DNA of 32,011 bases from an uncultured beta proteobacterium (GTDB taxonomy: Bacteria; Pseudomonadota; Gammaproteobacteria; Burkholderiales; Burkholderiaceae_C). Shown in pieces: positions 490 to 26,400 of the stretch (its first letter is position 1; each line of letters starts with the position of its first letter). The translations under genes were made by a program, and so were the position numbers. The notes beneath the pieces are model-generated. The model made no database searches. It was not told where the DNA came from and saw nothing but the letters and a program-made list of their open reading frames with translations. Location: positions 1 through 32,011 of the forward strand of contig CAIYDK010000309.1 of the NCBI GenBank assembly GCA_903924955.1, written 5' to 3'.

Positions 490-1386
490 TCAGCCTTGTG
501 CGACAGGGCGCGCAGGGTCACTGCACCACTCGCTCCAACTGCCTGCAAACAAGGTTGATCCTTTCAGCCCGGCAATTTCCATGGCCAGAATGTTCGGCAC
601 GGCGCTTACCCCACTGCCGCAGTGGTGTACCACGCTTGCGGGGTCACGGCCAGCGAGCAATGCGTCAAACTCTGCGCGTAAATCTGCGGCGGGCTTGAAG
701 CGACCGTCGGGGCCGATGTTGAGGCTGAACAACCGGTTCAGCGCACCGGGAATATGTCCGGCCACCGGGTCCAGCGGCTCGACCTCGCCCCGAAAACGCG
801 GCGCAGCGCGTGCGTCGATCAGTGTCTGGGCGTTGTCGCCCGTTGTGTTGCTCAGTCGAGTTGCTACGGTTTCGATAGTGGCCAGCGCAATCAATTCGGG
901 CTCTAGCGCGTAGTTTGATGCGTGCGTTTGGGGTTGGACGCCGCTGGTGATGGCGCCACCGGCGGCCTGCCAGGCCTGTATGCCACCGTCCAGCACCGCC
1001 ACGTTGTCATGGCCGGCCCAATTGAGCATCCACCACAGACGGCCGCAGTAGTTGGCGTTTTGACGGTCATAGACCACGGCTTGCATGGTGTTGTCAAAAC
1101 CGACGGAACCCAGCCAGGCTGCAAACGCCTCGCGCGTGGGCAGCGGGTGACGTCCGCCTGATGCGCTGGTGCCCGGGGGGGGCTTGCCGTTGGCAGGGTC
1201 CTTGGCGGCGCTGAGGTGCTTGTCCAGGTGGGCGTAGAGGGCACCGGGCAGGTGAGACTCGGCATACATGGCCTCGCCAGCCTGCGCGTCGGCTAAGTTA
1301 AAGCTGCAGTCAAACACCATGTACGGCTGACCGCTGGTCATCAGGGTCTGCAGTTGGGTGGCGGAGATCAGGGTGGTGTAGGACAT
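490..1386 (-). CDS. sseA: 3-mercaptopyruvate sulfurtransferase (two-domain rhodanese)
   Basis: The 298-residue product is a tandem rhodanese protein that transfers sulfur from 3-mercaptopyruvate to thiol acceptors or cyanide in the cytoplasm. The inactive N-terminal rhodanese domain spans about residues 5-150 and the catalytic domain about 165-295. The active-site loop is CGSGVSA at about 256-262. This matches the CGSGVTA loop of mercaptopyruvate sulfurtransferases rather than the CRKGVT loop of thiosulfate sulfurtransferases. I chose the ATG at 1386, which gives the usual SseA length. A frame extension to 1491 adds 35 low-complexity Pro/Arg-rich residues encoded by a GC-rich palindromic intergenic element and is unlikely to be translated. 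A 53-nt interspersed repeat copy overlies codons at 862-914. Downstream, 25 bp separate it from the convergent ZIP gene. Confidence 0.93.
   Translation of the reverse strand: MSYTTLISATQLQTLMTSGQPYMVFDCSFNLADAQAGEAMYAESHLPGALYAHLDKHLSAAKDPANGKPPPGTSASGGRHPLPTREAFAAWLGSVGFDNTMQAVVYDRQNANYCGRLWWMLNWAGHDNVAVLDGGIQAWQAAGGAITSGVQPQTHASNYALEPELIALATIETVATRLSNTTGDNAQTLIDARAAPRFRGEVEPLDPVAGHIPGALNRLFSLNIGPDGRFKPAADLRAEFDALLAGRDPASVVHHCGSGVSAVPNILAMEIAGLKGSTLFAGSWSEWCSDPARPVAQG
862..914 (+). repeat. Copy 1 of a 53-nt degenerate interspersed repeat (inside sseA, antisense to it)
   Basis: This 53-nt stretch aligns without gaps to 4978-5030 (minus), 19462-19514 (minus) and 23900-23952 (plus). Counting from its 5' end, it shares TGCTA at 1-5, TAG at 15-17, GCGCA at 24-28, C at 36, GGG at 37-39 and CTA at 42-44. 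By hand it matches the 4978-5030 copy at about 34 of 53 positions. It sits in the sseA coding sequence without breaking the frame. Confidence 0.5.
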
Positions 1387-1415
1387 AAATACTTTCTTTA
1401 AGGCAGAACTTGAGT

Positions 1416-1490
1416 GCCGCCGGGCCGCCCCAAGGCACGAGGGCCCCCTCGGGGGGCAGCGACCCGCATAGCGGCGGAGCGTGGGGGCCA
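1416..1490. repeat. GC-rich palindromic intergenic element
   Basis: The 108-nt spacer between the EamA transporter stop and the sseA start holds an extremely GC-rich block. It contains a hairpin GCCCCC-TCG-GGGGGC at 1443-1457 and a second short hairpin CCGC-ATA-GCGG at 1464-1474. It resembles the multi-copy GC-rich palindromes that I associate, from memory only, with intergenic regions of Comamonadaceae genomes. It may act as a transcription barrier or RNA stabiliser between the two minus-strand genes. No second copy was found in this window. Confidence 0.5.
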
Positions 1491-1494
1491 CATG

Positions 1495-2382
1495 CTAATG
1501 GTCTTCGGCCGGAGTATTGGGCATGGCGCGTGCGCGCAGGGCAGTTGCCAGTATGCCGCTGGTGACGATAACCGCAATGCCGGCCCAGCCAATGGGGGCG
1601 ATGTGGTCGCCAAACAGCGTCAAACTGTAGACGGACGCAAACACAATGCCGCTGTACTGCATGCTGGCTACCACCAGGGTGGCGCCATGGCTGTAGGCGC
1701 GTGTCATGCACCATTGGCCGAGCGATGCCAGCACGCCAATGGGTATCACCCAGGCCGCCGCCACGAAGCTCACCTCGGACCACGGCGTGATATTCGTGAA
1801 CAGGGCGCCTATGGCCCCAACGACCACCGTGCCGATGGAAAAATAGAAAACGGTGCGCACTTCAGGCTCACCGACCTTGCCCAAAGCCGTGACCTGCATA
1901 TAAGCCAGCGCCGCGCCCATGCCCGAGAGCAGGCCGATGACGCCGGCAAACAGCTGGTTCTGGTCGATGGTGGGGCGCAGCGTCAGCACCACGCCAATGA
2001 AACCCAGCAGCACCGTGCCCAGCAGCGGACCTTGGCGCTGTGCCTGGCCGTAGAGCAGGGCGCCGCCCACGATGAAGGCTGCCACCCAGACACCGCTCAT
2101 ATAGTTGAGTGTCATGGCCGTGGCCAGGGGCAGGTGGCCAATGGCATAAAACCAGGAACTCAAGGACAACACGCCAATCGTGCTGCGCCACACATGCATC
2201 ATGGGAACAGGGGTTTGCAAGGGAACGCCTCGCGCACGCAGCACCACGCCCATGAACACCACACTGACGATGCCCCGGTACAGCACCAGTTCGAGGGTGC
2301 CAAAGCTGGCGGATGCGAACTTGATCCCGACGGCCATGGTGGCAAACAGGAACGATCCCAGCACCATCCACAGTGCCTGCAC
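1495..2382 (-). CDS. EamA-family (DMT superfamily) transporter
   Basis: The product is an inner-membrane protein of about 295 residues with roughly ten hydrophobic helices arranged as two EamA repeats, the usual size and topology of drug/metabolite transporters that export amino acids or other small metabolites. The substrate is not predictable. I prefer the GTG at 2382: it overlaps the TAG stop of the upstream Rieske gene by one base (TAGTG) and has a GGGA motif just upstream, suggesting translational coupling. The same frame can be extended to a GTG at 2409, but no ribosome binding site is evident there; an ATG lies at about 2367. The first repeat starts immediately, with the first membrane helix in the first 20 residues. 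The C-terminus is short and charged. Confidence 0.9.
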   Translation of the reverse strand: MQALWMVLGSFLFATMAVGIKFASASFGTLELVLYRGIVSVVFMGVVLRARGVPLQTPVPMMHVWRSTIGVLSLSSWFYAIGHLPLATAMTLNYMSGVWVAAFIVGGALLYGQAQRQGPLLGTVLLGFIGVVLTLRPTIDQNQLFAGVIGLLSGMGAALAYMQVTALGKVGEPEVRTVFYFSIGTVVVGAIGALFTNITPWSEVSFVAAAWVIPIGVLASLGQWCMTRAYSHGATLVVASMQYSGIVFASVYSLTLFGDHIAPIGWAGIAVIVTSGILATALRARAMPNTPAEDH

Positions 2383-3563
2383 TAGAGTCCCATCTGTCGG
2401 CGATACCACTGGTGGAAGTGCGGCATGCCATCTTCCATCGGGCTTTGATAAGGGCCTACTTCGTTGTCACCGCGCTTGAGCAGTGCGGCGCGCCCGGCGT
2501 CCATGCGCTCGCCAATCTCGTCGTCCTCGATGCAGGTTTCGTTATAGGCGGCCTGCTGCGCCTCCACAAACTCGCGCTCAAAGGCCACGATTTCCTCCGG
2601 GTAGTAGAACTCGACCATATTCATGGTCTTGTTGGGCCCCATCGGGTGAAGGGTGGACACGGTCAGCACATGCGGGTACCACTCCACCATGATGTGTGGG
2701 TAGTAGGTTAGCCAGATAGCGCCCTGTTTGGGCGGCACCCCGTTGCGATAGGCCAGCAACGCCTTTTGCCAGCGCTCGTACACCGGGGAGCCGCCGGTCG
2801 CGTCAGCCTTTGCCAACTGAGCCGCCACGCCCACGGTCTGCACGGAGTAGCTATCGGAAAACTGCCAGCGCAAGTCGTCACAGGTGACGAATTTTCCCAG
2901 TCCGGGGTGGAACGGGCCGACATGGTAGTCCTCCAGATAGACCTCGATAAAGGTCTTCCAGTTGTAGTTGCACTCATGCATCACCACTTTGTCGAGCACA
3001 AAGCCTTCAAAGCTCAGCGCATCGCGCAAGCGCATGCCACCCAGATCGGCGGCGACATCACGTCCGTTCTGCTCGAACAACAGGCCATTCCACTCTTGTA
3101 GCGGGTAGTTCTTCAGGTTCAGGCACGGGTCCTGGTTGAAGTGAGGTGCGCCAATCAAGGTTCCGGCTGGCTGAGGTGTACCCTGGGTGTTGGCACCGCT
3201 GTAGGTCCAGCGGTGCAGCGGGCAAACAATGTTGCCCCCGGCACTGGCGACTTGGCGTCCAGGGTCGGTCACCGGATTAACCAGCGAGTCGCGGCCCTTG
3301 AGCATGATGGCCTGGCGGTGGCGGCAGACATTGGAGACAAGCTCCACCACCCCACTGGCATTGCGCACCAGCGCCCGCCCTTCCAGCTCTTGCGGCAGGG
3401 CGTAGTAGTCCCCGACATGGGGAACGCTCAAGGTGTGCCCCACATAACGGGGCCCTTGCTGAAAGATACTTTGCAGTTCGCGCTGGTACAGCGCTTCGTC
3501 AAAATAGCTTGAAACTGGTAGTTGGCAAGATGCCGGCTGCAGTTGAAGACTTAAATCAGACAT
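2382..3563 (-). CDS. Rieske non-heme iron oxygenase, alpha subunit (aromatic-ring-hydroxylating dioxygenase family)
   Basis: This 393-residue cytoplasmic oxygenase has an N-terminal Rieske [2Fe-2S] domain with Cys80-x-His82 and Cys114-x2-His117, followed by a catalytic domain. The mononuclear iron site is seen as NWK at 201-203 and an EDYH-x4-H motif, giving likely ligands His214 and His219. The residue three before the first His, which relays electrons from the Rieske cluster, is Glu211 rather than the Asp of naphthalene dioxygenase. The carnitine oxygenase CntA is known to use Glu at that position. The ATG at 3563 has AGGA upstream; earlier in-frame codons encode unrelated sequence. No reductase, ferredoxin or beta subunit is encoded nearby, so electrons must come from a distant partner. 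It diverges from xseB-ispA-dxs and is followed by an exporter. The substrate is unknown. Confidence 0.88.
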   Translation of the reverse strand: MSDLSLQLQPASCQLPVSSYFDEALYQRELQSIFQQGPRYVGHTLSVPHVGDYYALPQELEGRALVRNASGVVELVSNVCRHRQAIMLKGRDSLVNPVTDPGRQVASAGGNIVCPLHRWTYSGANTQGTPQPAGTLIGAPHFNQDPCLNLKNYPLQEWNGLLFEQNGRDVAADLGGMRLRDALSFEGFVLDKVVMHECNYNWKTFIEVYLEDYHVGPFHPGLGKFVTCDDLRWQFSDSYSVQTVGVAAQLAKADATGGSPVYERWQKALLAYRNGVPPKQGAIWLTYYPHIMVEWYPHVLTVSTLHPMGPNKTMNMVEFYYPEEIVAFEREFVEAQQAAYNETCIEDDEIGERMDAGRAALLKRGDNEVGPYQSPMEDGMPHFHQWYRRQMGL

Positions 3564-3736
3564 GTTGTCCTGACCTAAAGACTCCCCACAGGGGGATGCG
3601 CTCCATGGCGCGGTGATAAAAAGAAACCGGTCTTTGCTTCGTGCAGCGACCGGAAACGGGAGGGGGCATTGTACCCGGGGGCCAGGCAACAACCATAGAG
3701 CCTAAAATCACGGTTTACTGTTTTTTACCCATTTCC

Positions 3737-3997
3737 ATGCCCAAGGCCAGTGCCAAACCCCATTCTGCTGACGAAGCAACCGTTTCCAGCGTAAAGCCAG
3801 CTACCTATGAGGACGCCATGCGTGAGCTCGAGCAGCTGGTTGGGAGCCTCGAATCCGGGGAAATGCCCCTGGAGCAGATGCTGTCGGGCTACGAGCGCGG
3901 GGCATTGCTGTTGCAGTTGTGCCGGGATAAATTGCAGGCGGTGGAAGACCAGATCAAGGTGCTGGACGGCGGTGCGCTCAAGCCATGGAAACCGTAA
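3737..3997 (+). CDS. xseB: Exodeoxyribonuclease VII small subunit
   Basis: The 86-residue product matches XseB, the small subunit of exonuclease VII, which binds along XseA to form the nuclease that degrades single-stranded DNA to oligonucleotides. The family core runs from [12 protein letters not shown] through [10 protein letters not shown] to the C-terminal helix ending with a QIKVLDGG-like segment. The start ATG at 3737 leaves a polar, Ala/Ser-rich tail of about 20 residues before the core, a common variation. An in-frame extension to 3641 would reach into the divergent promoter region and is not supported. The stop codon overlaps the ispA start (TAATG), so xseB and ispA are translationally coupled. 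The xseB-ispA-dxs order is widely conserved in proteobacteria. Confidence 0.93.
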
Positions 3998-4959
3998 TGA
4001 CCAGTGCAACAACGATGGACACCTCCGTGCGGCAGAAATTTGAACTCGAAGCCTGGAGTAGCCTGCGGCTGGTGCAAGTTGAGCACGCGTTGGGTGACTG
4101 GGTGACCGCGGATGCACCGCAGGGGCAGAATCATGGTGCGCCGGCACAACTGGTCGACGCCATGCGCTACGCCGTGCTGGACGGTGGAAAACGATTGCGA
4201 CCCCTGTTGGTGCTGGCCGCGCACGAGGCAGTGTGCCCGATTGCGAGTGATGCGGGGGTGAACGCCGCCCTGCGCGCCGCATGTGCCGTGGAGTTGATTC
4301 ATGCCTATTCCCTGGTTCACGACGACATGCCCTGCATGGACAACGATGTGCTGCGCCGTGGAAAGCCCACTGTGCATGTGCAGTTTGGCGAGGCCTGCGC
4401 TTTGCTGGCCGGAGATGCATTGCAGGCGCTGGCATTCGAGTTGATGACCCCTCAGGACGGCTCGGTGCCAGAGGCCACGCAAGCGCGCTTGTGCGCGTTG
4501 CTGGCCCGCGCTGCGGGTAGTGCCGGAATGGCTGGCGGGCAGGCCATTGATCTGGCCAGCGTGGGGCAGTCGCTGACGGAGGCGCAGTTGCGCGAAATGC
4601 ACGAATTGAAGACCGGCGCCCTGTTGCAGGCCAGCGTCATGATGGGTGCGCAGTGCGGCGAACCCGGCGCGCAGGCGCTGGCTGCGCTGCAGCGCTATGG
4701 GGCGGCCATTGGCTTGGCTTTCCAGGTGGTTGATGACATACTGGACGTGACTGCGGATTCCAGTACCCTGGGCAAAACGGCCGGCAAGGATGCCGATAAC
4801 AACAAACCTACCTATGTGTCGTTAATGGGCCTGCAGGCCAGCCGGGACTACGCCCAGCGGCTCCTGCTTCAGGCGCAGTCCGCACTGGACAACAGTGGCC
4901 TGGCGCAAACCCAGGCCTTGCGCGCCTTGGCTGACATGGTTGTCAATCGTGCACATTAA
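3997..4959 (+). CDS. ispA: Farnesyl diphosphate synthase (short-chain polyprenyl diphosphate synthase)
   Basis: This cytoplasmic enzyme condenses DMAPP/GPP with IPP to make farnesyl diphosphate for quinone side chains, undecaprenyl phosphate and hopanoids. The 320-residue product carries both aspartate-rich motifs. The first is DDMPCMD at about 109-115, with two residues between the aspartate pair and the next acidic position as in bacterial type II FPP synthases. The second is VVDDILD at about 244-250. The GGKRLRP substrate-binding motif is at about 63-69. The ATG at 3997 shares bases with the xseB stop; another ATG at 3985 in the same frame is possible and would add four residues. Downstream, a 72-nt spacer largely filled by an interspersed repeat separates it from dxs. 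Confidence 0.95.
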   Translation: MTSATTMDTSVRQKFELEAWSSLRLVQVEHALGDWVTADAPQGQNHGAPAQLVDAMRYAVLDGGKRLRPLLVLAAHEAVCPIASDAGVNAALRAACAVELIHAYSLVHDDMPCMDNDVLRRGKPTVHVQFGEACALLAGDALQALAFELMTPQDGSVPEATQARLCALLARAAGSAGMAGGQAIDLASVGQSLTEAQLREMHELKTGALLQASVMMGAQCGEPGAQALAALQRYGAAIGLAFQVVDDILDVTADSSTLGKTAGKDADNNKPTYVSLMGLQASRDYAQRLLLQAQSALDNSGLAQTQALRALADMVVNRAH

Positions 4960-4977
4960 CCCCACTGTATCGACTGA

Positions 4978-5030
4978 AATGGCCGCTAGGCCCCGAAATA
5001 CCTGCGCCAGCCGCTACTAAAAGAATAGCA
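4978..5030 (-). repeat. Copy 2 of the 53-nt interspersed repeat (fills the ispA-dxs spacer)
   Basis: Read on the minus strand, this stretch starts TGCTATT and has TAGC at 15-18, GCGCA at 24-28, GGGG at 37-40 and CTA at 42-44. It aligns without gaps to the copies at 862-914, 19462-19514 and 23900-23952. It occupies 53 of the 72 nt between ispA and dxs and ends one base before the dxs ATG, so the dxs translation initiation region lies inside it. Confidence 0.55.
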
Positions 5031-5031
5031 T

Positions 5032-6921
5032 ATGCCGAAAAATAAATTTCCTTTGCTGCACACGATCAATTCGCCCGAAGACCTGCGACTGGTGGAGCGG
5101 GATCAGTTGCGCGAGTTGACCGACGAGTTGCGTGCCTTTCTGCTTGAGAGTGTCGCCAAGACCGGCGGGCATCTCAGTTCCAACCTGGGCACAGTGGAGT
5201 TGACGGTGGCCTTGCACTACGTCTACAACACACCGCATGACCGCATCGTGTGGGACGTGGGCCACCAAACCTACCCGCACAAAATCCTGACGGGTCGGCG
5301 TGATCGTATGCCCACCTTGCGTCAGTTGGGTGGTCTGAGTGGCTTTCCGCAGCGTGGCGAGAGTGAATACGACACCTTTGGAACGGCACACTCCAGTACC
5401 TCCATTTCTGCGGCCTTGGGTATGGCAGAAGCCGCTCGCATTCAGGGTATCGACCGGCATTGCATTGCGGTGATTGGTGACGGCTCCATGACGGCTGGCA
5501 TGGCGTTTGAGGCGCTGAATAACGGTGGTGTGTCTGACTGCAACCTGCTGGTCATCCTCAACGACAACGACATGAGCATCAGTCCGCCGGTAGGTGCTTT
5601 GAATCGCTATTTTGCCAAGCTCCTGAGTGGTCGTTTCTATGCGTCGGCCAAGAACGTCGGCAAGAGTGTGCTCAAGGGCGCGCCGCCCCTGTTTGAACTC
5701 GCAAAACGGCTGGAGGAGCAGGCCAAGGGCATGGTGGTGCCGGCCACGTTGTTTGAGAAATTCGGGTTCAACTATATCGGCCCCATCGATGGGCACGATC
5801 TGGATTCGCTTATTCCCACGCTGGAAAATATTCGCCAGCTCAAGGGTCCTCAATTCCTGCATGTGGTCACCAAAAAAGGCCAGGGCTACAAGCTCGCCGA
5901 GGTCGATCCGGTGGCCTACCATGGCCCCGGCAAGTTTGATCCCGTGGTGGGCTTGCAAAAGCCCAGCGTGGCGCCCAAGCCCACGTTCACCCAGGTCTTC
6001 GGTCAGTGGCTGTGCGACATGGCTGAGCAGGACAAGCGTCTGGTGGGCATCACACCGGCCATGCGTGAGGGTTCAGGGATGGTCGAGTTTGAGCAACGCT
6101 TTCCAGAGCGTTACTTTGATGTCGGCATTGCCGAGCAGCATGCCGTGACCTTTGCCGCAGGATTGGCAGCGGAAGGTCTCAAGCCGGTGGTGGCGATCTA
6201 TTCCACCTTCTTGCAGCGCGCTTATGTCCAGCTGATTCATGACGTGGCCATCCAGAACTTGCCGGTGGTGTTTGCGCTGGACCGCGCCGGGCTGGTGGGT
6301 GCCGACGGTGCCACCCATGCGGGTGCGTACGACATTGCTTACCTGCGCTGCATTCCCAACATCAGCGTGGCCTGCCCGTCGGATGAAAACGAGTGTCGGC
6401 AATTGCTCAGCACGGCGTTTGCACAGGACCACTCTGTGGCAGTGCGCTATCCGCGTGGCGCGGGCGCTGGTGTAGCCCTACAGGCCGGCCTCGACAGTCT
6501 GCCTTTTGGTAAAGGTGAAATTCGTCGTTCGGGAACCAGTGGCATCGCCATTCTGGCGTTTGGAACCTTGCTCTACCCGGCGCTCGAAGCAGCACAGGCA
6601 GTGGGCGCTACGGTGGTCAATATGCGCTGGGCCAAACCGCTGGACACCGAACTGTTGTTACAGGTGGCGCGCAGTCATCAGGCACTGGTGACGGTCGAGG
6701 AAGGGTGCATTATGGGCGGCGCTGGCAGTGCAGTTGCCGAGGCGCTGCATGCAGCAGGTGTCGAGGTACCGGTATTGCAACTCGGGCTGGATGATGTGTT
6801 TATCGAGCATGGCGACCCCACGCGACTTCTCGCTATGCAGGGGCTGGATGCGGCGGGGATTCAGGCGTCCATTGCGCGCCGATACGCCACACTGCTGGCG
6901 CCGGTAGCGCGCGCTGCTTGA
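5032..6921 (+). CDS. dxs: 1-deoxy-D-xylulose-5-phosphate synthase
   Basis: DXS is the thiamine-diphosphate enzyme that condenses pyruvate and glyceraldehyde 3-phosphate, the first step of the MEP isoprenoid pathway; its product feeds IspA encoded just upstream. The 629-residue length is typical. The N-terminal ThDP/Mg2+-binding motif [16 protein letters not shown] lies at about 149-164 with NDND at 177-180. The central pyrimidine-binding transketolase domain includes the [15 protein letters not shown] segment around residue 365, and a C-terminal transketolase domain follows. The HSSTS segment near 120-124 is also typical. The ATG at 5032 has only a weak A-rich ribosome binding site, which lies inside the interspersed repeat. 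It is the last gene of the xseB-ispA-dxs run. Confidence 0.97.
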
Positions 6922-6979
6922 GGGTGAGAAGGTCTAGGCTTACAGAATGCTGAAGACTTCGGCATCGAATGGATTTCGA

Positions 6980-7020
6980 GGGAAAACCCCCACGTTTGGT
7001 ATCCCCCGGGTTTCTACAAT
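6980..7020 (+). promoter_or_regulatory. Candidate promoter and activator site upstream of the TakP-like gene
   Basis: A TACAAT -10-like box lies at 7015-7020. Directly upstream is an imperfect inverted pair: GGGAAAACCCCC at 6980-6991 and CCCCCGGGTTTC at 7003-7014, whose GAAAACCC and GGGTTTC arms mirror each other. No good -35 box is present at the usual spacing, which fits an activator-dependent promoter. This is inference from pattern only. Confidence 0.3.
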
Positions 7021-7098
7021 CTTCGGTGGCTCTTAGAAGTCCTTGCCGCGCGGAAATTTCTGTTCGATAAGATTGTTTAACCCTGTTGGAGTACATCG

Positions 7099-8181: not shown

Positions 8182-8195
8182 GCCCATTGCCTACC

Positions 8196-8230
8196 CAACA
8201 AAAAGCCCCGCATCGCGGGGCTTTTTGTTG
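8196..8230. terminator. Bidirectional rho-independent terminator
   Basis: A perfect 15-bp inverted repeat spans 8196-8210 and 8216-8230. Its GC core, GCCCCG/CGGGGC, is flanked by five A residues on the left and five T residues on the right, so it can end transcription from both sides. It lies between the stop of the TakP-like gene (8181) and the convergent TRAP large permease gene (stop at 8262). Confidence 0.93.
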
Positions 8231-8261
8231 ACGGGAATCATGGTGTGTCAGGCTTATCAGC

Positions 8262-17362: not shown

Positions 17363-17462
17363 TTTGTCTCCGCTTTGGATGGGGGTATCGCTGGCCCGGG
17401 GTGGCTTTGGGCACAGCGCAAAGTCTATCGGGTATTGCTTCCTATGGCTTTAGAAAAGCTGA

Positions 17463-17495: not shown

Positions 17496-17531
17496 ATGTA
17501 CAACAGCAAGTTGTTTCGGATCGCAGCCGTC

Positions 17532-18815
17532 TCAGTGCATCAACCGGTACTGCGCGACATAGACTGCGGCGCCTGCCAGATAGCCCACCAGCGCCAGCAA
17601 GCTGATCTTTTTCATGTACCAGAAGAAGTCAATTTTTTCCAGACCCATCGCCGCAACGCCTGACGCAGAGCCAATGATCAGAATGGAGCCGCCTGTGCCC
17701 GCGCAGTAGGCCATGAACTCCCATAGAAAGCTGTCGGTCGGGTATTGCGCCAGGTTGTACATACCCATGGAGGCGGCCACCAACGGCACGTTGTCCACGA
17801 CGGCGCTGACCAGTCCAATCAGGACCACAATCACGTCCTGGCGGCCAATGGTTTGCTCCAGCCACTGGGCTAGCGCACTCAATATGTGGGTGTGCTCCAG
17901 AGTCGCCACGGCCAACAGGATGCCGATAAAGAAAACAATCGAGCCCATGTCGATCTTGGTCAGGGCGCGTACCAGCGTCAGGTGCTCCTTGTCGTCATCG
18001 GTTTTGCCTTGGTGCATCAGGTCGCCCACTGCCCACAAAATGCCCAAGCCAAAAAGAATGCCCATGAAGGGTGGCAGACCGGTGAGGCCTTTGAACAGGG
18101 GCACCGCAACCAAAATGCCAAGCCCTAGGTAGAACATCAGTGTTTTTTCAAAGTGGCTCGCCATGCAAGTGATAGTGTTTGCATCGCGTTGCGGTGCGAC
18201 CACCATCTTGCCCCGCAACATCCGGGCAGTAACAGCGAGTGGTACCAAGAGACTGACGATGGATGCCAGAAACACCGACTTCATGATGTTCCACGAGGTG
18301 ATTTGGCCGCCAATCCACAGCATGGTGGTGGTCACGTCGCCAATGGGGGTCCAGGCGCCTCCGGCATTGGCGGCAATGATGATGATGCCGGCAAAGAACA
18401 GACGGTCTTCATGCTTGCCCAGCAATTTTTTCATGAGCGAGACCATCACGATGGTGGTGGTCAGGTTGTCCAGGATGGAGCTCAGAAAGAAGGTCACAAA
18501 GCCTACCATCCACATCAGCGAGGAAAGCTTGGCCGTGCGGATGCGCGAGGTGATGACGTAAAAGCCGTCGTGCGCATCCACTACTTCAACAATGGTCATG
18601 GCACCGATCAGAAAGAACACGATTTGCGCCGTGCCCATCAGTGACTGCCCCAGTTCTGCGCCAACCATGGTGTGCTCGCCCGTCCCGACGGCGTAGACCG
18701 TCCACAGCAAACCCGCACCAATCAGTGCGGTAGCTGACTTGTTAATTTTGAGCGGATGTTCCAGTGCGATAGCGGCGTACGCGATCACAAAAATGGCGAT
18801 GAGCGCAGTCAGCAT
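17532..18815 (-). CDS. nhaD: Sodium:proton antiporter, NhaD family
   Basis: The 427-residue product is an inner-membrane antiporter of the NhaD type (ion transporter superfamily) that extrudes Na+ (or Li+) in exchange for protons. It has about 12 hydrophobic segments. Characteristic segments include SSILDNLTTTIVMV around residues 110-125, the GGAWTPIGDVTTTMLW segment around 150-170, VDNVPLVAA and GTGGSILIIGSASGVAAMG near the C-terminus. AGAGGAAC lies upstream of the ATG at 18815. It lies 169 nt upstream of the TakQ-like gene on the same strand. Because TRAP importers use the Na+ gradient, an antiporter in the same island could keep that gradient. Confidence 0.93.
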   Translation of the reverse strand: MLTALIAIFVIAYAAIALEHPLKINKSATALIGAGLLWTVYAVGTGEHTMVGAELGQSLMGTAQIVFFLIGAMTIVEVVDAHDGFYVITSRIRTAKLSSLMWMVGFVTFFLSSILDNLTTTIVMVSLMKKLLGKHEDRLFFAGIIIIAANAGGAWTPIGDVTTTMLWIGGQITSWNIMKSVFLASIVSLLVPLAVTARMLRGKMVVAPQRDANTITCMASHFEKTLMFYLGLGILVAVPLFKGLTGLPPFMGILFGLGILWAVGDLMHQGKTDDDKEHLTLVRALTKIDMGSIVFFIGILLAVATLEHTHILSALAQWLEQTIGRQDVIVVLIGLVSAVVDNVPLVAASMGMYNLAQYPTDSFLWEFMAYCAGTGGSILIIGSASGVAAMGLEKIDFFWYMKKISLLALVGYLAGAAVYVAQYRLMH

Positions 18816-18904
18816 AGCTTTGTTCCTCTTTTTTGTAGTCCGTTCTGCGGAGTCTAAGGGCTATTGCGGCGTTAGCGGCTGAAGAATCCCTGACATGAAA
18901 CCAT

Positions 18905-19429
18905 TCAGCCTATACGCCCACGTATCCACTGCAACATGGAGCGCGCACTGCTGCGCAAGGCACGCGCACTGGCTGCGGTGGCACGCCAGACCGGGGAATT
19001 TTTCACGCGGGCGATCAGGGCGTCCTTCCAGAGTTTCCAGCGCCCATACAGGCGGGCAAACCAGGCCAGCCGCATCAGGGCCGGTTGGGTGAGGGCAAAC
19101 AGGCGTGCCACCGCTGCGGTGCCCAGCATCTTGGCCGCCAGCACAACGGCAACGCCTAGTACGGCATGCCCCCGACTGATCCAGTACAGGGCCAGTAGCT
19201 TGACCGGCAACAACAGGAGTGCTGGCACGAAGAACACCACGAGCGCTCCATAGGGCGGCAGACGGGCAATGAAGGCTTCCATGCGTGCCCACAGGGGCAA
19301 CTTTGCAAGCCGCTCCATCAGGCGGGCCAGCGGCTCCCAGCCCCATTCCTCAAAGATCAGCACCAGAGCCAATACCGGCGCGATGGTGAGGTTGAACAGG
19401 TTGGCGAGCAGGCGTCGCAGGAATGTCAT
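18905..19429 (-). CDS. Conserved small membrane protein of unknown function
   Basis: I do not recognise a characterised family in this 174-residue product. It has about three hydrophobic segments (roughly residues 8-27, 58-82 and 88-115). A strongly basic C-terminal third follows, rich in Arg, Lys, Ala and Trp, and probably cytoplasmic. The coding frame is well kept over its whole length, and the ATG at 19429 gives a sensible membrane-proximal N-terminus, although the ribosome binding site is weak. It lies 68 nt downstream of crcB and 89 nt upstream of nhaD on the same strand, so it may be a late gene of the TRAP-crcB transcript. Similar short membrane proteins occur in Burkholderiales genomes by my recollection only. 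Confidence 0.72.
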   Translation of the reverse strand: MTFLRRLLANLFNLTIAPVLALVLIFEEWGWEPLARLMERLAKLPLWARMEAFIARLPPYGALVVFFVPALLLLPVKLLALYWISRGHAVLGVAVVLAAKMLGTAAVARLFALTQPALMRLAWFARLYGRWKLWKDALIARVKNSPVWRATAASARALRSSARSMLQWIRGRIG

Positions 19430-19461
19430 GGGTTTATGGAGCGCCGATAGTTATGAGTCAT

Positions 19462-19514
19462 ATGGTGCTGTAGCCCCCGTAGAGTGTGCGTAACGCGCTA
19501 TTGAAAAGATAGCA
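19462..19514 (-). repeat. Copy 3 of the 53-nt interspersed repeat (overlaps the crcB 3' end)
   Basis: Read on the minus strand, it starts TGCTATC and has TAGC at 15-18, ACGCA at 24-28, GGGGG at 37-41 and CTA at 42-44, aligning without gaps to the copies at 862-914, 4978-5030 and 23900-23952. The last codons of crcB (Leu-Ser-Phe-Gln) and its TAG stop are encoded by the first 17 bases of the element; the remainder lies in the crcB-membrane protein spacer. Confidence 0.55.
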
Positions 19515-19878
19515 TGTTTTGCACGCTCCAGATACCTGCAACGGTCAGTAGCAATGAGCCGACTAAATGTAAGGCAGCGGTGCCCAGGGCCAGCGCATAG
19601 CGCTGCTGCATCAGCATACCCACCACTTCGGCGCTGAAACTGGAAAACGTGGTGAGGGCACCGAGAAAACCGGTGACCAGTGCCAATCGCCACACGGGGT
19701 CGAGCTGGGGCAGAGCTTGAAAGACGGCCACGCAAATGCCGATCAGATAACCGCCAATCAGGTTGGCGGCCAGCGTACCCCAGGGAATAACACCTCCAGG
19801 GCTGAGCCAAAGACCCAGTCCCCAGCGCGCCAGGGCTCCCGCACTGGCGCCCAGACAAATTGCAATGACAGGCCACAT
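19498..19878 (-). CDS. crcB: Fluoride ion channel/exporter CrcB (Fluc)
   Basis: The 126-residue product has four hydrophobic helices and the signature segments of Fluc/CrcB: GASAGALARWGLG near the N-terminus, GTLAANLIGGYLIG around residues 34-47 with the pore-lining Asn, and GFLGALTTFSSFSAE around 70-84 with the Phe-box and TTFS motif. It forms dual-topology dimers that let fluoride leave the cell. The ATG at 19878 is four bases after the stop of the upstream dctM (19883), so crcB is probably translated from the TRAP operon mRNA; only a weak AGG ribosome binding site is visible. No room exists for a fluoride riboswitch directly upstream. Its last residues and stop codon are supplied by an interspersed repeat copy. 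Confidence 0.94.
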   Translation of the reverse strand: MWPVIAICLGASAGALARWGLGLWLSPGGVIPWGTLAANLIGGYLIGICVAVFQALPQLDPVWRLALVTGFLGALTTFSSFSAEVVGMLMQQRYALALGTAALHLVGSLLLTVAGIWSVQNMLSFQ

Positions 19879-19882
19879 GCGC

Positions 19883-21184
19883 CTAGTTTGCCATTTTTTC
19901 GGGTAGCCAGGTCACGATGCCGGGAAAGACGTAAATCAATGCAACCGCGATGCACATCAGGAAGAACATGGGCATCGTCACCTTGGCAATCCAGGTGAGT
20001 TGGCGTCCGGTCATGCCTTGCAGCACAAAGAGGTTGAAGCCCACGGGCGGTGTGATTTGCGCCATCTCCACCACCAGCACGATGAAAATGCCAAACCAGA
20101 TGGGGTCGATGCCGGCCGCGTTCACCGTGGGCATGAGGACGCCCATGGTCAGCACCACCATGGAGATGCCGTCCAGAAAGCAGCCCAGGATGATGAAGAA
20201 AATGGACAGCGCCACAATCAGCTGCCACTTGCTCAAAGCCATTGACGCAATCCACTCGGCCAGGTGGCGCGGCAGGCCGATGTAGCCCATGGCCAGGGTC
20301 AGGAATGCAGCGCCCGCCAGGATCAATGCAATCATGCAATACAGCCGCGTGGCACCCATGATGGCGTCCCGAAAGGTGGCCCAGTTCATGGAGCCCTGCA
20401 GGGTAGAGAGCACCAATGAACCCACAACACCCACGGCCGCCGCCTCAGTGGCCGTGGCAATACCGGAGTAGATCGAACCCAGCACCGCGGTGATGAGCAG
20501 GACCACCGGAATCAGACTGCGCGAGGCGCCCAGTTTCTCCATGAATGTGGTCTGCTCGTCGGACGCCGGCACCTGGTCCGGGTGGCGCAGTGCCCAAAAA
20601 ATGATATAGCCCGAGAACAGGCAAGCCAGCATGATGCCCGGAATCACGCCGGCAATGAACAGCTTGGAGATGGATACCTCGGCTGCCACGCCATAGACGA
20701 TCATGATGATGGAAGGCGGTATCAGCAGTCCCAGTGTGGCCGCACCGGCCAGAGTGCCAATCACCATGTGGTCGGGGTAGCCGCGGCGCGTCAGTTCGGG
20801 CAGGGTCATCTTGCCGATGGTGGCGCAGGTGGCCGCGCTGGAGCCGGACACCGCGGCAAAGATGGTGCAGCCAATCACGTTGGTGTGCAACAGGCGCCCG
20901 GGCAGTGCTTGCACCCATGGGGCCAGGCCTTTGAACATGTCTTGACTTAGCCGCGTTCGAAACAGGATTTCCCCCATCCACACGAACAGGGGTAGGGCGG
21001 TCAGCGTCCAACTGCTCGACGACCCCCACACTGTGACCGCCATGGCGTCGCCGGCCGGACGTGACGAGAACAACGTAACGGCCATCCAGGCCACGCCGGT
21101 AAGGGTCAGGCCGACCCAGACGCCGCTGCCCAGAATCAGCAGCAGGGCAATGAGCAGAGCGGCGGTTATGGCGAGATCATTCAT
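19883..21184 (-). CDS. TRAP transporter large permease (DctM), pyroglutamate-type system C (candidate)
   Basis: The 433-residue protein is a standard-length DctM with about 12 helices. Visible features are WTLTALPLFVWMGEILFR, the AAVSGSSAATCATIGKM segment, GLLIPPSIIMIVYG, the TATEAAAVG segment, and MAQITPPVGFNLFV near the C-terminus. It follows the small permease gene by 23 nt and precedes crcB by four bases. Together with the DctQ at 21208 and the DctP at 21738 it forms a complete importer, divergent from a 5-oxoprolinase-type gene. That context suggests 5-oxoproline (pyroglutamate) as substrate; this is inference. Confidence 0.92.
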   Translation of the reverse strand: MNDLAITAALLIALLLILGSGVWVGLTLTGVAWMAVTLFSSRPAGDAMAVTVWGSSSSWTLTALPLFVWMGEILFRTRLSQDMFKGLAPWVQALPGRLLHTNVIGCTIFAAVSGSSAATCATIGKMTLPELTRRGYPDHMVIGTLAGAATLGLLIPPSIIMIVYGVAAEVSISKLFIAGVIPGIMLACLFSGYIIFWALRHPDQVPASDEQTTFMEKLGASRSLIPVVLLITAVLGSIYSGIATATEAAAVGVVGSLVLSTLQGSMNWATFRDAIMGATRLYCMIALILAGAAFLTLAMGYIGLPRHLAEWIASMALSKWQLIVALSIFFIILGCFLDGISMVVLTMGVLMPTVNAAGIDPIWFGIFIVLVVEMAQITPPVGFNLFVLQGMTGRQLTWIAKVTMPMFFLMCIAVALIYVFPGIVTWLPEKMAN

Positions 21185-21207
21185 GGACTTTGGCTACTGG
21201 TGGGTTG

Positions 21208-21717
21208 TTATTCATTGCGCAATGGCTCGTCACTGCTCTGGACCACACGCTGACCGCGAATCTCCAACACCAGTTCATCGACAAAGGCAATCGCCAGAAT
21301 CACGGCTCCCACCGCCATGCCAATCTGTGGAATCCACAGCGGCGTGGCGTCAGTGCCGGTGGAGATGTCGTTGAACGTGCGGGATTGCCAGGACAGGCGG
21401 CAGCAGTAGAAGGCGAACATGGCGGTCAAGGCGCAGGCAAAGGCCAGGGCCCACACTTCCAGTCCTTTCTTCCAGCCGCCAGACAGGGCAGCGAGGATCA
21501 GCGTCACACGGATGTGTTCCCCCCGCTTGAGCGTATGTGCCAGAGCAAGAAAGCCGCTAGCAGCCATCAGATAACCGGCATAGGCGTCGGTTCCCGGCAC
21601 ATAAAAGTTCAGTTGCCGCCCCCCCACGGAGAGCAGCACCATGATCAGCAAGCCGAATAAAAACAGTGCCGCCAGTGCGGCAGCACCGTCGTACAGTGTG
21701 TCCAATGCCTTTCGCAT
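21208..21717 (-). CDS. TRAP transporter small permease (DctQ), system C
   Basis: The 169-residue DctQ has four hydrophobic helices, with the GTDAYAGYLMAASGFLALAHT segment following helix 1 and KRGEHIRV after helix 2 as in other DctQ proteins. I chose the ATG at 21717, which has an AGGGG sequence upstream. An alternative TTG at 21741 would overlap the dctP stop (TTGA) and add eight residues. It is the middle gene of the dctP-dctQ-dctM run, with the dctP stop about 20 nt upstream. Confidence 0.88.
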   Translation of the reverse strand: MRKALDTLYDGAAALAALFLFGLLIMVLLSVGGRQLNFYVPGTDAYAGYLMAASGFLALAHTLKRGEHIRVTLILAALSGGWKKGLEVWALAFACALTAMFAFYCCRLSWQSRTFNDISTGTDATPLWIPQIGMAVGAVILAIAFVDELVLEIRGQRVVQSSDEPLRNE

Positions 21718-21737
21718 GACCGCCCCTGCGTTCCGGA

Positions 21738-22724
21738 TCAAGGCTTGGTGAAAGCGTCAACCACCGCTTTGCCTTCAGCACCGGATTTTTCCAGCCACTC
21801 CTTGACCATGGTGTCACCTACCTTCTTCATGTCGGCCTTGAGTTGGGCTGATGGCACGACGATGTTCATGCCATTGGCCTTGAGCTTCTCGATCGACTCC
21901 ACGTTAACCCGCTTGCTGGCCGCAAGGCCGCGCACTTCCGCGTCGGCCGCGGCCTTCAAGACCACAGCTTGTGTGGGCTTGTCCAGTGCGTCGAATGCGG
22001 CTTTGTTGACGAGGACGGCATTCTTGGGCAGCCAGGCTTGCATGTCGTAGTAATACTTCAGGTTCTCGTACAGCTTGCTGTCCACACCGGAGGCGCCAGA
22101 CGTCATGGTGGCCTCCACAACTCCGGTAGCAAAGGCCTGCGACAGTTCCGCTGCCTGCACGGTCACCGGCTGTGCACCCACCAGCTCGGCAATGCGGCTG
22201 GTAGCGGGGCTGTAGGCGCGCCATTTGATACCCTTGAGGTCGGCGGCGGTTGCCAGCGGCTTCTTGCTGTAAATACCCTGAGGCGGCCAGGCTACCGCGT
22301 ACAGCAGGTTCATACCTTGCTCGGCCAGTTTCTTCTCCAGCGCGGGCTTTTGGGCCTTGTAGAGCTTGGCGGATTCATCGTAGCTGTCGGCCAAAAAGGG
22401 CAGGCCATCCACGCCAAAAAGCTGCCATTCATTTTGATAATTGACCAGCAAAATCTCCCCGGCCTGGGCTTGGCCACCTTGCACGGCGCGTTTGATTTCG
22501 GGAGCCTTGAATAGCGCGGCATTGGCGTGCACCGTGATCTTGAGCTTGCCGCCACTGGCCTTGTCCACGTCATTGGCGAACTGCTGCAGGTTTTCGGAGT
22601 GGAAATTGGTGGCAGGGTAGGCGCTGGCCAGATCCCACTTCACTTGGGCCAAAGCGGCTCCACTGGCCAGGCTCAGGGCAAGCGCTGCGGCGGTGGCGGT
22701 CAGGGCAAACAGGCGACGTTTCAT
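21738..22724 (-). CDS. TRAP transporter substrate-binding protein (DctP family), candidate pyroglutamate binder
   Basis: This 328-residue periplasmic protein has a Sec signal peptide (MKRRLFALTATAAALALSL, cleavage around ALAQ, residue 26). The mature part starts KWDLASAYPATNFH and has a DLKGIKWRAYSPATSRIAEL segment with the conserved ligand Arg, and a MTSGASGVDSK segment where other DctP proteins have QENP. Bordetella pertussis DctP6 and DctP7, TRAP binding proteins, have been crystallised with pyroglutamate. Given the divergent 5-oxoprolinase gene here, the same ligand is plausible. CGGAG precedes the ATG at 22724. The promoter region upstream contains a palindrome shared with the regulator gene. 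Confidence 0.9.
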   Translation of the reverse strand: MKRRLFALTATAAALALSLASGAALAQVKWDLASAYPATNFHSENLQQFANDVDKASGGKLKITVHANAALFKAPEIKRAVQGGQAQAGEILLVNYQNEWQLFGVDGLPFLADSYDESAKLYKAQKPALEKKLAEQGMNLLYAVAWPPQGIYSKKPLATAADLKGIKWRAYSPATSRIAELVGAQPVTVQAAELSQAFATGVVEATMTSGASGVDSKLYENLKYYYDMQAWLPKNAVLVNKAAFDALDKPTQAVVLKAAADAEVRGLAASKRVNVESIEKLKANGMNIVVPSAQLKADMKKVGDTMVKEWLEKSGAEGKAVVDAFTKP

Positions 22725-22823
22725 AAAAAACTCCGTTGGGTTGAATGAATGGATAGCGTGGTGGGGCAGACAGTGGAATGTAAATCGCAATTGGGCAGGG
22801 CATCTCGGTGTTTTCCCTAAATG

Positions 22824-22838
22824 TCAACAAATTGTTGA
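22824..22838. promoter_or_regulatory. 15-bp palindromic operator candidate between divergent transcripts
   Basis: TCAACAA-A-TTGTTGA is a perfect inverted repeat with 7-nt arms. It lies between the TRAP operon (start codon at 22724, minus) and the MarR-like regulator (start codon at 22901, plus). Its outer ends overlap two back-to-back -35-like boxes: TTGACA on the minus strand (22827-22822) and TTGATA on the plus strand (22835-22840). One dimeric repressor could thus control both directions. The adjacent MarR-like protein is the obvious candidate. Confidence 0.6.
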
Positions 22839-22864
22839 TAAATTGTCATCTTGCTGCCTACAAT
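22835..22864 (+). promoter_or_regulatory. Candidate sigma-70 promoter of the regulator-oxoprolinase operon
   Basis: TTGATA at 22835-22840 and TACAAT at 22859-22864 are separated by 18 bp and lie about 37 nt upstream of the regulator start codon. The -35 box overlaps the right arm of the 15-bp palindrome. The matching minus-strand promoter has a good TTGACA box but a poor -10 region. Confidence 0.5.
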
Positions 22865-22900
22865 TCGGCCACGCAACAAAGATGCCAACCTGGAGCGCCC

Positions 22901-23461
22901 ATGTCCAATAAACCTGCCCCCCCCGCATTGGGGGCCGATACCGTAGGCACGGCTCCGGCCAGTGGGCCCATCGTGTCGTCTGCGCATCTGGTGTCGCCCC
23001 GCAGTGCCGAGATGAGCGAGTTTGAGTTTGGCCTGATCGTGGCGGGTAATGCCTTTCACCGCTGGATCACGCACTGCATGAGTGCGGCGGGCCTCAAAGA
23101 CCTGACGCCGCTGGACGTTTTGGTGCTGCACCATGTAACCCACCGTGCGCGCAACAAGCGGCTGGCCGACATTTGTTTCATCATGAATGTGGAAGACACC
23201 CACCTGATCAACTACGCGCTCAAGAAATTGCAAAACCTCGGCGTGGTGGTGTCAAGCAAGAGCGGCAAGGACGTGACCTACGTTTCCACCGAAAGTGGGC
23301 GCGACTTTGTGGCGCGCTACCGCGAAATCCGCGAGTCCTGCCTGATCAATGCGCTCAATGCTGATGATGGACTGAACCGCGACATTGGCGAGTTGGCGCG
23401 GCTATTGCGCCTGCTCTCCGGCATCTACGACCAGGCCGCTCGTTCGGCAGCATCCTTATGA
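22901..23461 (+). CDS. MarR-like winged-helix transcriptional regulator
   Basis: The 186-residue product has a Pro/Ala/Ser-rich N-terminal tail of about 45 residues. A helical segment and a winged-helix domain follow at about 65-150: [33 protein letters not shown] as the recognition-helix region, then [22 protein letters not shown] as the wing. A C-terminal dimerisation helix completes it. The order of elements is that of MarR-type regulators. The ATG at 22901 has GGAG upstream; an in-frame ATG at 22808 would read through the promoter. The stop overlaps the oxoprolinase start (ATGA), so both are co-translated. It probably senses pyroglutamate or a product and controls both the divergent TRAP operon and its own operon. 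Confidence 0.83.
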
Positions 23462-26400
23462 ACCCATCCAATACTTCACGCTGGCAATTCTGGATCGACC
23501 GCGGCGGTACTTTCACCGATGTGGTGGGCAAGCGCCCGGACGGCGCGCTGGTCACGCACAAGTTGCTGAGCGAAAGTCCAGAGCAGTACCGCGACGCGGC
23601 CGTGGCCGGCATTCGCCACCTGTTGGGTCTGAAGTCCAGTGAGCCAGTTACGCCCGATGTGGTGGAGTGCGTGAAGATGGGAACCACCGTGGCCACCAAC
23701 GCCCTGCTGGAGCGCAAAGGCGAGCCCACATTGCTGGTGACAACGCGGGGTTTCAGGGATGCGTTGCGCATTGCCTACCAAAACCGCCCCCGCATTTTTG
23801 ACCGCAACATTGTGTTGCCCGAGTTGCTCTACAGTGCGGTGGTCGAGGCGCAGGAACGGGTGGGTGCGCATGGGGATGTGATCGAGTCCCTGAATGAACT
23901 GCTATTAAAAGAGGAGCTGCTTGCGCAGTATGCACGGGGGCTACGCGGCGTTGCAATAGTTTTTATGCACGGCTACCGCTATACAGAGCATGAAAAGGCG
24001 GCGGCCCGATTGGCGCGGGAAGTGGGCTTTACCCAGGTCAGCACCTCACACCAAACCAGCCCGATGATGAAGTTTGTGAGCCGGGGCGACACCACGGTCG
24101 TGGACGCCTACCTTTCACCCATTTTGCTGCGCTATGTGGATCAGGTTGCAGCCGACATGCCCGGTGTGCCGCTGTACTTCATGCAGTCGTCGGGTGGCCT
24201 TGCCGACGCCCATGCGTTTCAGGGCAAAGACGCGATTCTGAGTGGCCCCGCGGGCGGCATTGTCGGTATGGCCCGCACCGCCGCGATTGCAGGCATTGAG
24301 AAGGTCATTGGCTTTGACATGGGTGGCACGTCGACCGATGTGTCGCACTACGCGGGCGAGTTTGAGCGCGAGTTCGAGACACAGGTCGCCGGCGTGCGCA
24401 TGCGCGCGCCGATGATGAGCATCCACACCGTGGCAGCGGGTGGCGGCTCGATTCTGGCGTTTGACGGTTCGCGCTTTCGGGTGGGTCCGCAGAGCGCCGG
24501 TGCCAACCCGGGCCCGGCCAGCTACCGCCGCGGCGGCCCGCTGGCTGTAACGGATGCCAATGTGATGCTGGGCAAGGTGCAGCCGCGCTACTTTCCCAAG
24601 GTGTTTGGCGCGCAGGCCAATGAGGCGCTGGACGCTACCGTGGTGCATGAAAAGTTTGCGGCACTGGCGGGGCAGACGGGCCGTGCACCCGAAGAAGTGG
24701 CCGAAGGTTTCATTGCCATCGCCGTGCAGCAGATGGCCAATGCCATCAAGAAAATTTCAGTCGCCCGTGGCTACGATGTGACCCGTTACACCCTGCAGTG
24801 CTTTGGTGGTGCCGGTGGTCAGCACGCCTGCCTGGTGGCCGATGCGCTGGGCATGACGCGGGTGTTTGTGCATCCGCTGGCCGGGGTGCTGTCGGCCTAC
24901 GGCATGGGGCTGGCAGACCAGACGGTTATTCGCGAACAGGCGGTGGAGGTCAAGTTGGAGCCACAAGCCGTCATTCAGATCAGTGGACAACTCGATGCAC
25001 TGGCCAAGGTGGCCGAAGCGGAATTGGCTCAAGAGCAGGTCAACCAGGGTCAGGTCACGACGCATCTGCGCGTCCATGTTCGCTATGAGGGAAGTGATGC
25101 GGCGTTGGTGATTGCGTACCCGACAGGCGTCGAATTGGCGCCGCAGGACATTGTGTCGCAGATCGAAGCAGGGTTTGAAGCGGCCTATCGCCAGCGATTC
25201 TCGTTCTTGATGCACGGCAAGGGGTTGATCGTTGAGGCGGTGTCGGTGGAGGCGGTCATTGCCGGCGATGCCCCGGTCGAGCCGCGCTACACCATGCATG
25301 CTCCGCGTGACCTGCTTCAGAGCGGTGCGGTAGCCGAGATGGTGCGTATGTACTGCGATGGTGAGTGGATGGAGGCGGCATTGGTGGTGCGTGAAGCACT
25401 GCGTCCGGGTGACGTGATTCACGGCCCGGCCATCATTGCCGAGAAGAATGCCACCACCGTGGTGGAGCCGGGCTGGCAAGCCACTTTGACAGAGTTTGAC
25501 CACCTGGCCCTTGTCCGCATTGCGCAACGCGCTATCAAATTTGCAGCAGGAACCACGGTGGACCCGGTACTGCTGGAGGTGTTCAACAACCTGTTCATGA
25601 ATATTGCCGAGCAGATGGGCCTGCAGTTGCAAAACACCGCTTACTCGGTCAATATCAAGGAGCGGCTGGACTTTAGCTGTGCACTGTTTGATGCCGAGGG
25701 CAACCTGATTGCCAACGCGCCGCATATGCCGGTGCATTTGGGAAGCATGGGCGAGAGCATCAAGACCGTGATTCGCGAGAACAAGTCCAGCATGCAGCCG
25801 GGCAATGTGTATGTGCTCAACGACCCCTACCATGGGGGCACGCACTTGCCAGACATTACCGTCATCACGCCGGTGTATCTGGGCGACAAGCCCCTGTTTT
25901 ATGTCGGCAGTCGCGGCCACCATGCCGATATTGGTGGCACCACACCGGGCTCCATGCCGCCGTTTTCCACGCGCATTGAAGAGGAGGGCGTGCAGATCAT
26001 TAACGTGCTGCTGGTGGACCGGGGTGTGTTGCGTGAGGCGGAGATGATTGAGCTGCTGCAAAGCGGTGAATTTCCTTCGCGCAACCCGCAGCAGAACATG
26101 GCCGACCTGAAAGCCCAGATTGCAGCCAATGAAAAAGGCGTGCAGGAACTGCGCAAGATGGTGGAGCACTTCAGTCTGGACGTGGTGCAGGCCTACATGG
26201 GCCATGTGCAGGACAACGCGGAAGAGTCGGTGCGACGTGTCATTACACGTCTGAAAGACGGCCAATTCACGCTCAAGCTGGACAATGGCGCGCAGATTCA
26301 GGTGGCGATTCGCGTGGATGCCAAAGCGCGGAGTGCCGAGGTTGATTTCACCGGCACCTCACCGCAGCAGACCAATAATTTCAACGCGCCCACAGCGGTG

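Follow-up and report, generated by a model that had tools for sequence, protein, structure and literature searches.

The window analysed here is a 32,011-nt stretch of contig CAIYDK010000309.1 (GenBank assembly GCA_903924955.1) from an uncultured beta proteobacterium of the Burkholderiales, and it contains five copies of a degenerate DNA motif that recurs throughout the genome of this organism (the source genome). A large recognition motif of double-stranded DNA (~60 bp), maintained by selection or molecular drive, is a well-supported reading of these copies, in preference to a recently transposed repeat or an RNA. The copies and the one spacer concerned are listed with their strands and with scores from a matrix built on 110 source-genome copies from outside the window.

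862..921, + strand: copy 1, antisense within a rhodanese/sulfurtransferase gene (490-1491, -); 25.3 bits
4960..5031, no strand: ispA-dxs spacer of 72 nt, between an ispA-like polyprenyl synthetase gene (3985-4959, +) and dxs (5032-6921, +); copy 2 occupies nearly all of it
4971..5030, - strand: copy 2, filling the ispA-dxs spacer and ending just ahead of the dxs start codon; 51.8 bits
19455..19514, - strand: copy 3, straddling the end of crcB (19498-19878, -); 64.4 bits
23900..23959, + strand: copy 4, sense, within a hydantoinase/oxoprolinase gene (23458-27111, +); 43.4 bits
25489..25548, - strand: copy 5, antisense, within the same hydantoinase gene (23458-27111, +); 11.3 bits

Copies in the window

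The original prediction had aligned four stretches over 53 nt and a fifth over its first 36 nt, and all five were recovered at its positions and on its strands; the 53-nt unit is real but runs on at the right to ~60 nt, with an ATTT. It had also been right in describing copies in both spacers and genes and an AT-centred inverted repeat at the left, and in setting the element apart from ordinary intergenic repetitive extragenic palindromic (REP) sequences. Columns common to all five copies are TGCT (1-4), AG (16-17), CGCA (25-28), C36, G39, C42 and A44, and copies 1-4 additionally have A5, GG (37-38), T43 and T53 in common; the shared columns named earlier were correct but incomplete. The crcB stop codon is the TAG of the ATAGC in copy 3.

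When each copy was scored with a matrix from which it had been left out, the left-out copies reached 19.1-35.3 bits, and nothing else in the window exceeded 5.0 bits. By the 110-copy matrix, the next-best place in the window scored -31.3 bits and 30 first-order Markov windows peaked at -11.0 bits. Copy 5 (25496-25548 in the original prediction) is genuine, though the weakest of the five. Shuffling of synonymous codons reached the observed score in 0/200 trials for each of the in-gene copies (862, 23900 and 25496) and in 2/200 for the copy straddling the crcB end.

Architecture and genus versions

From left to right, the motif consists of the inverted repeat TGCTAT-N7-ATAGC, a block GCTTGCGC, a segment of ~7-9 bp that varies, a block that is either G-rich or GCGC and ends in GCTAGAGGC, and the A/T tract ATTT. 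The source-genome consensus, from 110 of at least 150 copies, is tTGCTATtaaTTT.ATAGCTGCTTgCGCAtatTc.ACGGGGGCTAgAGgCc.ATTT.act, and the G+C content is 48% in these 110 copies and 53% in those of the relative G007. The centre varies by genus, with GCGCTT..AAGCGC in Acidovorax (20 copies), GCGCcCGT..TGGGC in Polaromonas (14) and GCGCA..GNGC in Rhodoferax (17); these versions were drawn from 58 of 80 loci, several of which come from one genome, and the search pattern itself fixes some of their letters. The versions of Acidovorax and of genome G075 have a good inverted repeat at their centre.

Adjoining letters of the A/T tracts (columns 20-22 and 63-66) were correlated in G007 and G075. At columns 20-22 in the source genome TTT is commonest (43/110), and ATT (21) and AAT (15) are also frequent. 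For recognition of the tracts by shape there is only a hint.

Copy number and distribution

With a sequence-only model built from 27 copies, at least 150 copies were found in the source genome at E < 2e-8 (1339 first-look candidates); as a rough figure, five copies per 32-kb window would correspond to some 700. The pattern TGCTAT-N7-ATAGC gave 38 forward and 39 reverse matches there against 0 in a backwards control, several of these 77 being one palindromic site counted on both strands. A matrix trained on G007 found 55 copies in 400 kb of that genome (the training stretch) and 25 in 200 kb of G313 (outside the training), with 0 in each reversed decoy; three Markov versions of the G007 stretch also gave 0, and the family described in the original prediction was therefore not refuted by shuffled DNA. 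G075 held 140 copies per 400 kb when scored with a matrix of its own and a less strict threshold. Extrapolation to whole genomes would give ~500 copies for G007 and ~1500 for G075.

The surveys also confirmed the earlier suggestion that the family is scattered through other Comamonadaceae. Within the genus, which we tentatively take to be Rhodoferax, the source-genome model gave at least 88 matches in 17/37 genomes, 1-20 in 6/37 and none in 14/37, and it matched 0/24 genomes from the rest of the order. The core ATAGCTGCTNGCGC occurred at least 20 times in 32/250 genomes of the family, up to 392 times, with no more than 2 control matches in any of those 32. Carriers named among the best 80 of at least 118 stretches were Acidovorax, Polaromonas, Rhodoferax, Simplicispira, Giesbergeria, Ottowia, Curvibacter, a Rubrivivax metagenome-assembled genome (MAG) and Comamonadaceae OS-4, together with Burkholderiales MAGs. 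G023, G006 and G021, with 20, 4 and 2 matches, are intermediate or nearly motif-free species within the genus, and loss of the motif system is possible for these and other sparse members.

One consensus query (E ≤ 0.01), which degenerate copies would escape, matched 0/50,697 phage records and 5/72,556 plasmid records, in 7 places in all. Three motif places lie on the 31.9-kb Rhodoferax antarcticus plasmid NZ_CP019241.1. Among viral contigs, 8 stretches were found by exact pattern.

In-gene copies and their same-length homologues

Copies in genes were compared with homologues at 15 alignable sites (14 in genes and one at a gene end). A same-length homologue judged motif-free was found at 10/15, the other 5 differing by 1-8 residues within the genus or in the named comparison, and at none of the 15 was there a clean insertion of ~20 residues. 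The sites are as follows, aroA and fabD being taken up below.

rsgA gene: same length in G004 and G035, shorter in other motif-poor genomes (alignment alone)
Gene-end site A64669: same length, LSATQIIA being retained while codons differ (alignment alone, first ~30 nt)
DNA polymerase I gene: same length in G018, G032, G035, G028 and G337
23S rRNA methyltransferase-like, RNase II-like and tldD genes (G007): same length in 6/6 genomes each (the first two names rest on matches below curated cut-offs)
icmF gene: same length as in PDB chain 4xc6
Copy 1, sulfurtransferase: no gap within the copy against PDB chain 1urh and a 2-residue gap against 3olh, these being the two alignments shown
Copy 4, hydantoinase: no gap within the copy against 7hk5; same length in G008, which scores -38.8
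Copy 5, hydantoinase: same length in G008, which scores -51.6
dapF gene: lengths differ by 2-3 residues among genus members; the alignment with one PDB chain has ~11 gap positions around the copy
Two unnamed genes (G007): length differences of 1-5 and 1-8 residues

Three sites were set aside (g7 192631 and 196018, for which there was no alignable row, and A 73225, a low-complexity protein). At 7/15 sites (six in G007, plus the DNA polymerase I site) the copies score 24.9-66.0 bits, and no homologous stretch in a relative scored above -4.6 bits. Whole-genome counts, from which G337 was left out, gave 0 motif matches in G018, G032, G035, G028 and G004 and 2 in G008; the PDB homologues were taken as motif-free because of their hosts. 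In-gene copies of G007 depended on codon choice: 25 matches above 30 bits dropped to 0-2 after synonymous shuffling. To judge by these alignments, the in-gene copies were made in place, by base changes within proteins of the same length. At the end of crcB, copy 3 had orthologous copies in G346, G335 and G331 and was missing in G003 (four relatives aligned).

The support for in-place origin comes from the 10 sites of unchanged length and does not extend to spacer copies. In the 13 relatives whose ispA-dxs spacer lacks the motif, the spacer measures 4-43 nt in 9 and holds 77-80 nt of other sequence in 4. Since motif-bearing spacers are mostly longer, the gain or loss of a copy in a spacer may have gone together with gain or loss of DNA.

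Relations among copies and constraint

The 110 high-scoring source-genome copies had a mean pair identity of 0.64 and a maximum of 0.855. After exclusion of 6 pairs with similar flanks, low-information columns behaved as independent (permutations reached the observed maximum in 68/300 and the observed variance in 41/300). G007 gave the same outcome on copy relations and stems, and no long-range linkage. Long-range linkage in G075 was borderline (5/100 permutations); its most alike pairs (0.97-1.0) have flanks in common and look like segmental duplicates. Of the term "repeat family" used in the original prediction, the degenerate family is real, but the sense of copied DNA was not borne out, as no copy lineages were seen in the source genome and several in-gene copies swap codons at unchanged protein length.

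RNA covariation, for which the original prediction had suggested a search, was absent from the source genome, the left palindrome giving z -2.7 and the four best-paired hairpin registers z -0.2 to -1.7; the left palindrome paired slightly less within than between copies. No Rfam family reached its gathering score in the window.

The 25 copies of G313 were compared with G312, to which it is ~95% identical. All of the 21 alignable copies were shared; one other lies at a rearrangement (A73810), one at an edge and two outside the shared stretch. Over the 21 copies, the two genomes differed at 3.6% of high-information columns, 9.4% of mid-information columns and 7.0% of low-information columns, against 4.8% in the flanks. 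The occurrence of free columns beside conserved ones indicates that letters are maintained, as opposed to the uniform decay of an old repeat. R_sequence was 45-46 bits against an R_frequency of 12.5-13.8 bits, the amount required to locate a set of sites of this size (G007 and G075 matrices). In one G313/G312 pair (A97643, in L165 near base 17643), stem letters were exchanged on both sides while the stem and a T-run were kept, which suggests that this copy doubles as a terminator, such an exchange being typical of compensatory change in intrinsic terminators.

Placement along the chromosome

Gene positions in G007 and G313 were taken from rough gene calls made for this analysis. Among the 80 copies of these two genomes, 40 lay inside genes (18 sense, 22 antisense), 25 in spacers and 15 across gene ends. 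The element started in codon phase 2 in 13/18 sense copies and in phase 0 in 17/22 antisense copies; in these preferred frames the TAG of ATAGC is avoided, and the four phase-1 sense copies are without that TAG. Divergent spacers were poor in copies and convergent spacers somewhat above expectation. Among spacer copies of G075, 27/102 were convergent and 7/102 divergent, against 36 and 38 among 215 spacers.

No fork-direction bias was detected among the 150 best G007 copies with the origin placed at dnaA (67:83, p=0.22), and the copies were spread near-uniformly from origin to terminus. Motifs read in the direction of the fork, such as KOPS and Chi, were rejected on this lack of strand bias. 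No two copies lay within 500 bp of each other in 400 kb of G007. In G313, the 128 kb that are syntenic with G312 contained 23 copies and the following 39 kb of non-syntenic sequence contained 0. Another 2 fell in the final 32.5 kb, a segment largely outside the comparison since the G312 sequence compared ends at ~175 kb.

Two placements stand apart. One gene of G007 resembling an error-prone DNA polymerase (L139:7334-10834) holds three motif copies, and at L006:1487-1560 a copy directly after the start codon encodes most of a lipoprotein-like signal peptide.

Candidate functions of the motif

We tentatively regard the motif as most likely uptake-signal-like, that is, similar to the uptake signal sequence (USS) of Pasteurellaceae and the DNA uptake sequence (DUS) of Neisseriaceae. 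In a fuller version, which we hold with more reserve, the Comamonadaceae would have an uptake-signal system with a 60-bp motif, two inverted repeats, genus dialects and hundreds to more than 1000 copies per genome; biased uptake and recombination would have driven the motif into coding sequence, and a predicted receptor would recognise it. To our knowledge it would be the first in the Burkholderiales. In such a system a protein would read the motif, and motif-bearing DNA would be preferentially taken up and recombined; copies would arise through point mutation and small indels and be retained because they are read, chance matches then being improved and spread by molecular drive. What placed this reading ahead of the others was the existence of dialects, the patchy occurrence inside a single genus and the excess of information. 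Likeness to uptake signals under molecular drive is further drawn from the in-place origin in genes, the use of both strands, the tolerated frames, the absence from the non-syntenic stretch and the rarity in phages and plasmids. Several of these points would suit a site for an architectural protein equally well.

A number of results weigh against an uptake signal, or against a motif assembled in place. A ComEC match was present in 14/17 motif-rich and in 19/20 other genomes of the genus, and G026, which is motif-rich and 99% complete, had none; on account of G026 we rated the uptake reading slightly lower and a nucleoid site slightly higher. No reader protein was found, we know of no uptake, competence or binding experiment on the motif, and known DUS and USS are several times shorter. 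With the copy, aroA is longer by 5 residues and fabD by 6, and at a threshold of 14 bits 5-10/28 in-gene matches of G007 persisted after synonymous shuffling. The ispA-dxs spacer carries the motif in 22/35 relatives, in spacers of 53-103 nt. In G075, 102/140 copies lay in spacers, pair identity at low-information columns had a variance (0.0175 vs 0.0163) above that of all 200 permutations, and the centre showed weak covariation (0.600 vs 0.577, z 3.5). Copies in G007 were slightly fewer towards the terminus (Kolmogorov-Smirnov p=0.035), and even spacing was not general, as G007 had a coefficient of variation of 0.91 (p=0.33), G075 was clustered and G313 alone was even (p=0.01).

A somewhat unlikely but substantial alternative is that the motif serves within the cell, where a chromosome-organising or nucleoid-associated protein would bind it so as to bend or anchor the DNA; ordinary selection would then maintain the copies. 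Two inverted repeats with A/T tracts would suit a large nucleoprotein site, as would the near-uniform, non-polar spread, the origin in place within genes and the scarcity of copies in divergent spacers. Systems that are fork-directed or bound to origin or terminus fit poorly with that same spread and the lack of strand bias, zero matches in 14 of the 37 genus genomes would be odd for a housekeeping role, and here too there is no candidate protein. A transcript-level element, either an intrinsic terminator or another RNA hairpin, is the least probable of the readings considered and very doubtful: the inverted centre in Acidovorax and G075, the convergent lean of G075 spacer copies and the A97643 pair speak for it, but half of the G007 and G313 copies lie in genes in either orientation, covariation is lacking in the source genome and G007, and no Rfam family was recovered in the window.

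Two further explanations would derive the copies from other copies. An old inserted repeat (of the miniature inverted-repeat transposable element, REP or Rickettsia-palindromic-element type), long since spread and now decaying around a constrained core, would account for numerous copies on both strands in genes and spacers, for the longer motif-bearing spacers in most ispA-dxs comparisons and for the extra residues of aroA and fabD. We consider it improbable, given that no clean insertion appeared at the 15 alignable sites, that near-identical copies are absent among the 110 high-scoring ones, that weak columns vary freely while the core does not, which simple decay would not yield, and that every alignable G313 copy is shared with G312. 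Templated overwriting, in which a partly similar resident sequence is converted by ectopic gene conversion or by annealing of single-stranded copies, would explain replacement without full insertion and the mixed small indels, and mid-information columns do change faster than flanks and G075 shows a slight excess of sharing at low-information columns. It would, however, be expected to bring in the free letters of the donor, and low-information columns are unshared in the source genome and G007, the latter also lacking long-range linkage; in addition, proteins are kept while synonymous sites change, which suits point mutation, and we rate overwriting as quite improbable.

Genome-wide recognition motifs built in place are rare. 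If the motif is an uptake signal, the two textbook cases would be joined by one more bacterial group, and the rich and poor species in one genus, together with the dialects between genera, would provide a natural experiment; if it is a chromosome-organising site, it would point to a DNA-binding protein with a footprint of ~60 bp. Either way, a constraint at the DNA level appears to shape hundreds of codon stretches and would be invisible to protein-based analysis.

Relation to known signals and repeats

USS and DUS resemble the motif in their abundance, in their occurrence on both strands and in genes as well as spacers, and in having preferred frames, in-place origin, genus versions and some copies that double as terminators. 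They differ in their length of roughly 10-30 bp, whereas the motif has ~60 bp, two inverted repeats, a Burkholderiales host and a mostly intergenic placement in Acidovorax ebreus. REP/REPIN elements with their RAYT transposase and Rickettsia palindromic elements are short, partly palindromic and present in many copies, the latter occurring in frame within genes; unlike these, the motif showed no insertions at the gene sites compared and no copy lineages in the source genome. An added peptide of the Rickettsia-palindromic-element type was rejected, as length was unchanged at 10/15 sites and the differences in aroA and fabD are far below 20 residues.

No paper describing the whole motif was found in a literature search, most subscription journals being outside it. 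In the available parts of PMC5217627 (2017), two motif pairs are rated potentially novel, left unexplained and described as frequent between convergent genes: GCTTAT(N)5AAGCG, with 114 copies in Acidovorax ebreus, of which 107 are intergenic and 44 convergent, and ATAGCT(N)22CAAAAG, with 125 copies in Polaromonas naphthalenivorans. Both pairs are fragments, and the same parts give neither the motif at full length nor an origin in place nor a survey of the family. The first lies at the centre of the Acidovorax version, with 14 matches in 21 Acidovorax loci, 14/14 flanked by motif arms (by eye). The second had 0 matches in 14 Polaromonas loci, and its identity with the motif is a guess. The available parts of PMC2755013 hold nothing on the motif.

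As far as described in the accessible parts of PMC3110155, the beta-proteobacterial repeat element (BRE) of Bordetella is 75-91 bp long, has 69% G+C, is often in tandem and reaches at most 29 copies; it resembles the motif in occurring in Polaromonas, Acidovorax and Rhodoferax and in having some copies in coding sequence. By that published description BRE was rejected as an identity for the motif, which is ~60 nt long with 48-53% G+C, hundreds of copies and no tandem arrangement. A separate GC-rich repeat of ~75 nt, 80-97% alike among the relatives compared, lies at 1416-1488 in the window; judged by description, it may be the published BRE, which it fits better than the motif does. This repeat is situated at the start of the sulfurtransferase open reading frame, the true start of which may be further in.

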